Source of the DNA: Pseudobdellovibrionaceae bacterium
GTDB taxonomy: Bacteria > Bdellovibrionota > Bdellovibrionia > Bdellovibrionales > Bdellovibrionaceae
NCBI GenBank assembly: GCA_947449255.1
Contig: CANFQX010000005.1
Span: forward strand, 1-64,000
Direction of reading: 5' to 3'
DNA length: 64,000 nt
The position numbers were made by a program, and so were the translations under genes. The notes beneath the pieces were generated by a model that saw only the letters and a program-made list of their open reading frames with translations, was not told where the DNA came from and ran no database searches. How positions within the stretch are numbered: position 1 is the stretch's first letter; the number at the start of each line of letters is the position of its first letter. Below, one piece after another: positions 36,038 to 39,153 of this stretch.

Positions 36038-36718
36038 TTATTTTGAGACAACGCCCATGACATCGCTTTCGCGAAGAATCACAAGGTCTTCATTTTGAAT
36101 TTTAATTTTTGAACCTGCGTACTCAGGAAAAACGATTTTATCGCCAACTTTAACATCCATGGGGCGTAAATGTCCCTTTTTAGTAAAGTGGCCTCGTCCA
36201 ACAGCTACAACCATCCCCTGCAAATTGCCCGAAGATTCAGTCACTGTATCTGGAATATAAAGTCCACCCGGCGTCATTTTTTCTGCACTCGACACTTGCA
36301 CAATCAAGCGATCATCAAGTGGAGTTGCAATTTTAGTGAGGTCTAATTTTTTGGCATCAGGTGTTTGTTTCAAAAGATGCTGCGGAACAACTGGCAATTT
36401 ATTTTTAGCTGGCATCTGTTTTTTTGCCATTGGCTTTTTAATTGAAGCTGTTTTTGCAGATTTATTTTTTTTTGATGAGCTAGCAACTGCTGCTTTTTTA
36501 ATAGTTTTTGGTGCTACAGCTTTTTTTGAAGTCTGTGACTGCTTTTTCTGGCTCACTTTAGAAGTTTTCTTTAACGGAGCCTTCGTAGCAACCTTTGCTG
36601 TCACTTTTTTAGGAGCTGCCTTTTTTGAATTTACTTTTTTTGAAGTTGTCGCCTTTTTTACGGCTTTCGATGGAGAATTTTTTTTGGTTTGCTTTGTAGA
36701 AGTTTTCTTCTTTGCCAC
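36038..36718 (-). CDS. Lys-rich histone-like tail fused to a GroES domain
   Basis: A 226-residue two-part protein starting at GTG with GGAAAGGAAA upstream. Residues 1-106 are almost only Lys, Ala, Ser, Thr, Pro and Val, with KKAAPKKVTAK-type repeats as in histone H1-like or AlgP tails. Residues 131-225 are a full Cpn10 fold: ATPLDDRLIVQVSSAEKM, TPGGLYIPDTVTESSG (mobile loop, LYI as the hydrophobic GroEL-contact triplet), a roof loop GRGHFTKKGHLRP and VKVGDKIVFPEYAGSKIKI, ending in LRESDVMGV. A normal GroES has about 95 residues. No groEL gene lies nearby. It is divergent from the PBP gene and precedes the porin-like gene by 10 bases. Role unknown; DNA or RNA binding by the tail is inferred. 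Confidence 0.82.
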   Translation of the reverse strand: MAKKKTSTKQTKKNSPSKAVKKATTSKKVNSKKAAPKKVTAKVATKAPLKKTSKVSQKKQSQTSKKAVAPKTIKKAAVASSSKKNKSAKTASIKKPMAKKQMPAKNKLPVVPQHLLKQTPDAKKLDLTKIATPLDDRLIVQVSSAEKMTPGGLYIPDTVTESSGNLQGMVVAVGRGHFTKKGHLRPMDVKVGDKIVFPEYAGSKIKIQNEDLVILRESDVMGVVSK

Positions 36719-36765
36719 AAAGTTTCCTTTCCGTGAAATGATTTATTTAATCTAGCGATGCTAAT

Positions 36766-36794
36766 TTGCTAAAGACAGAATTTCGTACTATTGT
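36766..36794 (+). promoter_or_regulatory. Promoter of the PBP gene, probably leaderless
   Basis: TTGCTA (36766-36771), a 17-base spacer and TATTGT (36789-36794). The expected transcription start falls at about 36801-36802, the position of an in-frame ATG. A longer frame would begin at the TTG that is the -35 box, which argues against it. Confidence 0.45.
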
Positions 36795-36801
36795 ACTATT
36801 C

Positions 36802-39153
36802 ATGTTGCGACCACGATTAAAGACTATTTTATTTTGTTTTACAATCTTTCTGACGCTTGTGATCATCACGGGCTTCGGATTAGTAGCCTCATCTTATTTT
36901 TCATTAGAAAAAGAGATGACACAAAAAATTGAATCTAAAAAATTTCTTATCCCTACGGAATACTATGCAGCCCCTGCAAGCTATTCCCTAAGAATGGTTG
37001 TCAATATTGCGGAGCTCGAAGGTCAATTTTTAAAACAATCCTACCGACGGCGCACTTCGGACCAAAGATTACTCCCCGGGGATTATTTCATAGGCAACCA
37101 CGATGAATGCATCTCTCGATTACAAATCAAATTATCTGATGATCAGGGATTTTGTTTTGGCTGGATCAATAAAGATGTTGAGTCCTTAGCCGCCGACAGC
37201 GCCATTCAAGTTGTTGTATTTCAGAACGCACAGCAAGGCCCATTGCAAGACAGCAACAAATTAAGTTCCAACAATCGACTCATCACAATGATTTTAAAAG
37301 GCGCCCCTTTTCATGAAGTGCCTGAAGCAGTAGGAGACGCCCCACTGATTGCCCAATTTATAGGCAATGAGCCGCTAATGCAAAAAACTGTTTCCTTGGG
37401 TGATATACCACCGGTTTGTTCAAATGCAATTATGTCCATCGAAGATGCCCAGTTCCTTAAGCACGGCGGTGTCAGCTACAAAGGGATTTTTAGGGCCCTG
37501 ATAAAAAATCTAACTCATGGAAAATCAGCGCAAGGCGGCAGCACGATCACTCAGCAATTGGTGAAAAATTATTTTTTGACCAGTGAAAAGACCTTGAAAC
37601 GAAAATACAATGAATTTGTGATGTCGCTTTTGCTTGAATCCCGTTTTAGTAAAGACGAAATCCTAGAGACCTATTTGAATATTATTTATATGGGACAAAG
37701 TGGAGCTTTCCAAGTCCGCGGCTACGGCGCGGCTTCCCAGTATTATTTTAATAAGGATTTACAATCCCTGAAACTCAGTGAGTGTGCCCTTTTGGCCGCC
37801 ATTGTAAACAGCCCTGGCCTCTACAATCCCTTTAAAAAGCCCATCAACGCAAGAAATCGACGGCATTTGGTTCTCGAAAAAATGCAAGAACTGCAATTCA
37901 TAACCAAAGACCAAGCGATGCTTGCGAACCAAGATCCCTTACCTAGTGCTCCGACACTGATGGCTGTCGAAACCTCGCCCTACTATCTTGATGCAGTTAG
38001 AAAACAGCTGGGCTCTTTGAATATTTCTCCGGAGGGACTCAAAATTTATACGGCACTTGATTTGCAATCACAGCAGTTCGCTCAAGAGGCCTTGAAAAAT
38101 CATCTTGAGAATCTGGAAGAAAACAATAAGCATATAAAGAGTCTTAAATCGAAGGGTCAAACACTGGAGGGCAGCGTTCTCTTAGGGGATAATAGAACCG
38201 GTCTGATCAGCGTCGCAGTTGGAGGACGCAATTATCGAATGACTCAATTCAATCGTGCCATTGATGGACATCGCCAGATTGGCTCAATCATGAAACCCTT
38301 TGTCTATTTGGCAGCATTAAAATCTCAGACCCCAGAGGGAAAACCCTACCTTCCGACCACCTTACTGAAAGACATCAAATTCACAATTAAGTACGAAGGT
38401 CAGTCGTGGACCCCAGATAATTATGGAAATCAATACTTTGGAACGGTCCCCATGTTCTTTGCTTTAAAAAACTCTTTGAATGCAGCGACGGCGAGCCTTG
38501 GCCTTGCTGTAGGATTGCAAAAAATCGCCGATACGGCCCACAATCTAGGACTCGAATCTGAATTGAAACCCTTGCCTTCGCTGACTTTGGGAGCTTTCGA
38601 AATGTACCCCAAGGAAGTCTTGCAAAGCTATATGAGCCTTGCTTCTTTTGGATTAAAAAAGAAAAATTCATTCATCAGAAAAGTGACAAATTTAAATAAC
38701 GATGTGATTTTCCAGCACCAGCTAAACCCAGAACAAAGCGAAGATCCTGCCCTGATAGCAAGCCTTGTCAGCATGATGAAACAAACAGTCCTCTCGGGCA
38801 CGGCAAGGTCCATTCAACAGAGTGGATTCTTAAACCCTGCCGCAGGAAAAACCGGAACAACAAGTGACAATAAAGACGCCTGGTTTGCTGGCTTTACTCC
38901 TTATTTAACGGCCGTTGTTTGGGTTGGATATGACAATAATCTTTCACATCATTTAACTGGCGCCAATGGACCACTTCCCATCTGGATCAACCTTATGAAA
39001 AAGGTAGGCAACCAATATCCAGCAGATGATTTTTCGTGGCCTGAAAATACTGAAAAAATAACCCTGGATGAATCTGCCCTACAAGCTCTTGGAGCCATCA
39101 GAGGACCTCAAGATCCAAAATCTGTTGAGCTGGTGATCAAGAAAAATCATTGA
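36802..39153 (+). CDS. Class A penicillin-binding protein (PBP1b-like)
   Basis: A bifunctional peptidoglycan synthase of about 783 residues from the ATG at 36802. One membrane segment (LFCFTIFLTLVIITGFGL) is followed by a region resembling UB2H. The glycosyltransferase (GT51) domain has SIEDAQFLKHGGVSYKGIFR and GGSTITQQLVKNYFL. The transpeptidase has SxxK (GSIMKPFVYL), SxN (KNSLNAATASLG) and KTG (AAGKTGTTSDNKDAWFAGF). All catalytic motifs are intact. No lipoprotein activator is seen nearby. The alternative TTG start would add 12 residues. Confidence 0.9.
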   Translation: MLRPRLKTILFCFTIFLTLVIITGFGLVASSYFSLEKEMTQKIESKKFLIPTEYYAAPASYSLRMVVNIAELEGQFLKQSYRRRTSDQRLLPGDYFIGNHDECISRLQIKLSDDQGFCFGWINKDVESLAADSAIQVVVFQNAQQGPLQDSNKLSSNNRLITMILKGAPFHEVPEAVGDAPLIAQFIGNEPLMQKTVSLGDIPPVCSNAIMSIEDAQFLKHGGVSYKGIFRALIKNLTHGKSAQGGSTITQQLVKNYFLTSEKTLKRKYNEFVMSLLLESRFSKDEILETYLNIIYMGQSGAFQVRGYGAASQYYFNKDLQSLKLSECALLAAIVNSPGLYNPFKKPINARNRRHLVLEKMQELQFITKDQAMLANQDPLPSAPTLMAVETSPYYLDAVRKQLGSLNISPEGLKIYTALDLQSQQFAQEALKNHLENLEENNKHIKSLKSKGQTLEGSVLLGDNRTGLISVAVGGRNYRMTQFNRAIDGHRQIGSIMKPFVYLAALKSQTPEGKPYLPTTLLKDIKFTIKYEGQSWTPDNYGNQYFGTVPMFFALKNSLNAATASLGLAVGLQKIADTAHNLGLESELKPLPSLTLGAFEMYPKEVLQSYMSLASFGLKKKNSFIRKVTNLNNDVIFQHQLNPEQSEDPALIASLVSMMKQTVLSGTARSIQQSGFLNPAAGKTGTTSDNKDAWFAGFTPYLTAVVWVGYDNNLSHHLTGANGPLPIWINLMKKVGNQYPADDFSWPENTEKITLDESALQALGAIRGPQDPKSVELVIKKNH

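Follow-up and report, generated by a model that had tools for sequence, protein, structure and literature searches.

The gene at positions 36038–36718 on the minus strand of the window (the whole stretch of 64,000 nucleotides of DNA analysed here) encodes a second GroES, denoted GroES2, in which a Cpn10 domain is preceded by a long, lysine-rich tail. From the comparison of homologous sequences we conclude that this tail belongs to the GroES2 protein, is conserved and does not stem from faulty annotation; it probably anchors the protein-folding machine of the cell to a negatively charged partner (DNA, RNA or membrane).

The coding sequence of groES2, delineated by its open frame and by the branch of homologues described below, starts with GTG, encodes 226 aa and contains no internal stop codon; an in-frame stop is located 9 codons upstream of the GTG, and a Shine-Dalgarno-like motif, GGAAAGGA (36725–36732, minus strand), lies 6 nt 5′ of it. 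The Pfam profile PF00166 (Cpn10) covers residues 132–224 (36047–36325, minus strand) with an E-value of 8.6e-28 and a score of 96.7 bits, the curated cut-off being 21.1, and all Foldseek matches of the GroES2 model with an E-value below 0.001, including GroES/Cpn10 structures, belong to the Cpn10/GroES family. The mobile loop carries the GroEL-binding hydrophobic triplet L153-Y154-I155 (36254–36262, minus strand), aligned with I25-V26-L27 of E. coli, and residues 175–187 (RGHFTKKGHLRPM; 36158–36196, minus strand), with a net charge of +4, form the basic hairpin that corresponds to residues 45–57 of E. coli GroES. The tail and a short linker occupy residues 1–130 (36329–36718, minus strand), are rich in Lys, Ala, Ser and Pro, with Lys strongly prevailing up to about residue 110, and are defined by the sequence itself, the 101 homologues, coding constraint and predicted coil. 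The first ~124 residues (13.3 kDa) consist of Lys, Ala, Ser, Thr, Val and Pro with acidic residues nearly absent, for a net charge of about +40; the computed pI is 10.5 for the whole protein and 6.9 for the Cpn10 domain alone. In the AlphaFold model, the tail, which is probably disordered, is coil with pLDDT of ~50–60, and the Cpn10 beta-barrel has pLDDT mostly above 90 except for the mobile loop. The earlier note had read this gene as a full Cpn10 fold fused to a tail resembling histone H1 or AlgP. The fold is borne out by the Pfam match, and the coordinates, strand and fusion by the unbroken 226-aa frame; the Lys/Ala tail is indeed present at the N-terminus and is slightly longer (residues ~1–124) than the 106 residues given there. 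A Phe-rich open frame of 139 aa on the opposite strand (36336–36755, plus strand), antisense to the tail, is the mirror of its Lys/Ala codons and thus is no evidence of a gene.

GroES2 shares with the canonical GroES/Cpn10 of E. coli the whole Cpn10 domain, the mobile loop with its hydrophobic triplet and the conserved glycines, but differs in its size (226 aa versus ~97), the 124-residue basic tail, a roof that is basic rather than acidic, and a location outside the groEL operon. A canonical GroES has 95–105 aa and is encoded beside groEL; here the protein has 226 aa and groEL is on another contig. The NCBIfam GroES models (PRK00364 type) all score GroES2 below their cut-offs (95.6 bits versus 120 for the best match and 91.3 versus 96 for the other model), and the histone H1-like model NF038053 yields 12.1 bits versus a cut-off of 80 (E-value 0.17). 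The tail alone gives no match to any Pfam or NCBIfam domain. Judged by its sequence, GroES2 is a Cpn10 protein by domain and loop, yet it falls below the cut-offs of the canonical GroES models; within this family, the window protein belongs to the GroES2 branch and carries both the basic N-terminal tail and the basic roof. In HspA of Helicobacter pylori, too, a GroES is extended by a low-complexity segment that binds a ligand. Its tail, however, is short, C-terminal, His-rich and metal-binding, and belongs to the only groES of that organism; nickel scavenging and C-terminal histidines are mentioned in PMC8779794 and PMC5116745. Phage T4 gp31 is comparable as an alternative lid for host GroEL, but the structural match is weak (Foldseek E-value 2e-3, 14% identity) and gp31 has no such tail. 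A phage-type gp31 lid was rejected as the identity of GroES2 on account of this weak structural match.

The source genome (3.21 Mb, 34 contigs) contains one further Cpn10 gene, a normal groES with a 105-aa open frame on contig 26, where it adjoins the sole groEL; groES2 is on a different contig. Thus, the earlier note's question of whether a normal groES exists elsewhere in the genome is answered, and with one groEL, a normal groES and groES2, two lids are available for one GroEL. Similarity searches identified no further copies of the groES2 tail in the source genome, and a scan for the Lys-codon pattern, which has a high background of chance matches, pointed to a few other Lys-rich proteins. 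In the same genome, ribosomal protein L21 (L265, 1337–1978, plus strand, contig C2) bears a Lys/Ala tail at its C-terminus (KKVAKKKVAKKAVKKTVKKVTKK...). In most sampled members of the order, the frames of L21 span 175–268 aa; frames of ~180 aa are found outside the order as well, so that long L21 frames need not all be Lys tails. Given the tail on L21, RNA-binding proteins of these bacteria bear such extensions, which fits RNA as well as DNA as a partner. On the same contig, near position 279,700 on the minus strand (L266), there is an unannotated, H1-like Lys/Ala protein of ~40 aa (MAKKAAKKATKKAVKKTTTKKVAKK...).

In an order-wide survey of 140–141 sampled genomes of the Bdellovibrio order, the tailed GroES2 fusion is present in at least 104 of 140; most of the surveyed genomes encode two GroES, with long frames for those second copies that were listed. 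The complete tailed GroES2 read from the loci (n=101) start with GTG (72) or ATG (29), with a Shine-Dalgarno-like motif in 97 of the 101, and their tails comprise 41–210 aa (median 98) with a net charge of +17 to +99 (median +34) and Asp plus Glu accounting for 0.56% of the residues. Three further GroES2 are incomplete, namely one with a shorter tail (L119), one with the tail cut by a contig end (L209) and one with a single internal TAA (L120); in L271, GroES2 is cut off at the Cpn10 domain itself. The TAA of L120 (2700–3330), which is in frame within the tail and comes from a 61% complete MAG, represents either a sequencing error or a decaying copy. Several distant members (L091, L122, L206, L269, L270, L272 and L273) possess much longer tails with near-regular KKKATKKK-type repeats and a net charge of +72 to +99 per subunit, compared with which the tails of the window family are more mixed. 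No untailed second GroES was seen in the order wherever the contig allowed a view, and in the phylum outside the order all listed GroES have ordinary frames of 97–132 aa. Most of the matches listed in a scan of named genomes are ordinary proteobacterial GroES. Within the order, G031, G042, G071–G073, G090 and the small genomes of family f9 are near-complete and lack GroES2, a single ordinary GroES being encoded in each.

The Cpn10 domains of the 101 GroES2 and of 75 other GroES, drawn from the order, from the rest of the phylum and from further phyla, were placed in a tree (a quick search on 103 columns with many forks unresolved). In this quick tree, one branch with an SH-aLRT support of 99 separates all 101 GroES2 from the 75 other GroES. 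The simplest reading is that GroES2 had a single origin near the ancestor of the order, followed by losses. The earlier note had allowed that the fusion might be kept in no other species, or that a frameshift or an assembly error had joined two genes. Its recurrence in at least 104 of the 140 sampled genomes is contrary to the former, and tail and fold stay together in 101 full-length, in-frame homologues on one branch; given that the fusion recurs across the order, a frameshift or an assembly join is excluded.

The groES2 gene itself is already known. It is Bd3349 of B. bacteriovorus HD100, described in 2012 as a second groES apart from groEL (PMC3464611), where the tail was dismissed as repetitive sequence and the start was moved to an internal methionine, leaving a published form of 117 aa without the tail. 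Among the homologues, L047 has a 224-aa frame from a GTG with an ATG at bp 322, exactly as PMC3464611 describes for Bd3349, so the methionine required for translation of the domain alone is present in an HD100-like frame, and the composition of the tail is repetitive, as that proposal holds. However, of the 24 members of the genus only 10 have an ATG near the domain, at varying places, and of all 101 homologues 30 do, with a Shine-Dalgarno motif in 3, whereas the start of the tail is conserved throughout and its ribosome site is likewise conserved. Furthermore, the tail evolves under purifying selection at the codon level: pooled over 25 close pairs, which overlap and are not independent, dN is 0.181 and dS is 0.974 for the tail, with 0.046 and 0.662, respectively, for the Cpn10 domain in the same kind of pooled sample, and single pairs agree with the pooled values (e.g., dN 0.027 and dS 0.321 for the tails of L047 and L049). 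Given that the internal methionine is not conserved, that the start and Shine-Dalgarno motif of the tail are, and that the tail is constrained, the re-annotation of Bd3349 appears to be wrong and the tail to be in the protein; an untranslated repeat with an internal start is exceedingly improbable and was discarded. No other Bdellovibrio paper naming Bd3349 or groES2, and no paper on a Lys-rich GroES tail or nucleoid-bound GroES, was found in the open-access literature searched. The reality of the tail, its order-wide conservation, the basic roof and the insertion slot of the gene appear to be new.

Comparison of the Cpn10 domains of 97 distinct GroES2 with those of 70 untailed GroES, in E. 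coli GroES numbering, reveals one feature that is kept and one that has changed. The GroEL-binding triplet (positions 25–27; LYI in the window protein) is hydrophobic in 97/97 and 70/70, respectively. The hairpin at positions 45–57, the dome roof of GroES, has reversed its charge: position 50 is acidic in 65 of the 70 untailed GroES and in none of the 97 GroES2, and positions 50 and 51 form a Lys/Arg pair, or Lys/Arg followed by His, in 84 of the 97 versus 0 of the 70. The median net charge of the roof is +4 in GroES2 compared with +0.5 in untailed GroES, and the corresponding values in the source genome are +4 for GroES2 and +1 for its own GroES1. To judge from the alignments, the basic tail and the basic roof have been retained while the GroES2 domain diverged to ~40% identity. 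Tail and roof that are both basic in the same clade reflect one shared ancestry, not many independent events.

The genomic context of groES2 is strongly conserved. As the earlier note had it, no groEL is nearby and the neighbour is a beta-barrel gene: an outer-membrane barrel (PF13372, with a weak match to TIGR04551; 34609–36027, minus strand) is encoded 10 nt 3′ of groES2, and a gene for a PBP1b-like transglycosylase/transpeptidase (36766–39153, plus strand) is divergent from it. In each of the 100 loci where this could be tested, groES2 is followed by the barrel gene in the same orientation, with a median gap of 16 nt, and the divergent PBP1b-like gene is upstream in 97 of 97. Outside the genus of the window, most loci also include a DUF507 gene, the end of which overlaps the groES2 start by 8–17 nt; DUF507 is upstream of groES2 in 65 of 101 loci, and a protein query over ten genomes detected it in 4 but in none of the five that belong to the genus of the window. 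Fourteen genomes without GroES2, including two that represent a different order within the class, were read at this site; in 13, a DUF507 gene directly precedes the barrel gene and no Cpn10 gene intervenes, and in 12 the divergent PBP1b can be seen as well. In the loci L300–L313, which lack groES2, the interval from the divergent PBP1b to the barrel is occupied by two DUF507-like genes in tandem. By gene order, the slot occupied by groES2 is an old envelope-associated cluster. Given that the DUF507-barrel cluster is intact without a Cpn10 gene, groES2 entered, and in places left, a pre-existing cluster that does not need it.

The best explanation for these observations, which we offer tentatively and with somewhat less than even confidence, is that GroES2 rings serve as an alternative lid on the single GroEL of the cell and that the tails and the basic roof hold the GroEL–GroES2 complex on a polyanion, most likely nucleic acid. 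The rings would cap GroEL, seven tails with a total of about +280 charges would project from the lid, and tails and roof together would bind a polyanionic surface, either nucleoid DNA or RNA/ribosomes. The earlier note had suggested that the tail tethers the co-chaperonin to nucleic acid or polyphosphate, or changes GroEL targeting; such a role is still the likeliest, and it gains in plausibility from the roof loop, which became basic in the clade that has the tail. The GroEL cavity accommodates ~60 kDa of substrate. Given that the computed mass of the seven tails, 93 kDa for the window protein and as much as 163 kDa for other species, is more than the cavity could take along with a substrate, they should lie outside. 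A functional parallel may be AlgP/PhaF of Pseudomonas (PMC9239181), which also combine a globular part with a long disordered Lys/Ala/Pro tail like that of histone H1; these tails, similar in make-up, bind DNA and position granules, and GroES2 could, by analogy, fix a particle to the nucleoid in the same manner. There is no homology between the two, and in AlgP/PhaF the tail is C-terminal with regular KPAA repeats and the body is not a chaperonin lid, whereas the window GroES2 tail has no KPAA repeat array and the body is Cpn10. Folding might be concentrated at the polyanion late in the predatory cycle, as progeny septate and mature; in HD100, groES2 is not expressed early but is induced at 2–4 h of predation (PMC3464611). 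A more specific version, possible but held with somewhat less confidence, is spatial targeting of the only chaperonin by lid swap, whereby GroES2 would bring GroEL-mediated folding to the nucleoid, or to nascent RNA, as the predatory cycle ends.

Some facts weigh against a nucleic-acid tether. The envelope genes that adjoin groES2 point to the membrane rather than DNA, and some complete genomes of the order that lack GroES2 keep these neighbouring genes. GroES is absent from the main text of a paper on nucleoid proteomics of HD100, although that paper concerns attack-phase cells and Lys-rich tails are poorly seen after trypsin digestion.

Nucleic acid is the first choice of partner; its main rival, in view of the adjoining envelope genes, is the membrane. 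The cationic tail could bind anionic membrane lipid, as poly-lysine does, or the secretion machinery, and bring GroEL to the inner membrane for the holding or folding of envelope precursors such as the products of the adjacent barrel and PBP genes. The invariable arrangement of groES2 before the outer-membrane barrel gene and facing the PBP1b gene, together with late expression at the time of septation in HD100 (PMC3464611), is compatible with this possibility. Nevertheless, it appears unlikely: the barrel–PBP1b cluster persists intact in genomes without GroES2, even in a different order within the class, which shows that the barrel can do without GroES2, and the tail has no hydrophobic anchor.

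To a similar degree, it seems improbable that GroES2 no longer serves GroEL and that its Cpn10 ring is a seven-armed platform condensing DNA, RNA or polyphosphate. Such a role would agree with a tail that is longer than the domain and carries up to +99 charges per subunit, with the basic roof and with the separation of groES2 from groEL, but the triplet and mobile loop that contact GroEL, found in 97/97 distinct GroES2, would be superfluous in a simple scaffold, and the domain is strongly constrained (pooled dN 0.046, dS 0.66). A translational role of the Lys-rich coding sequence as a slow, charged leader limiting expression, or a lid on another ring such as ClpP, as suggested by matches in sequence and fold to the algal Cpn11/20/23 of the ClpP complex (7ekq), is highly improbable, given that slowing requires neither 41–210 residues nor a basic roof, and that the 7ekq matches reflect the shared Cpn10 fold, with GroEL-bound GroES structures ranking higher by fold.

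For work on Bdellovibrio, the conserved tail corrects the published re-annotation of Bd3349, under which experimenters would clone a protein lacking half of its sequence. The usual view of GroEL/GroES is that of a machine that diffuses freely and has a single type of lid. If a tethered alternative lid is indeed what GroES2 provides across the order, a bacterium would, through a change of lid, choose the place at which its only chaperonin works.
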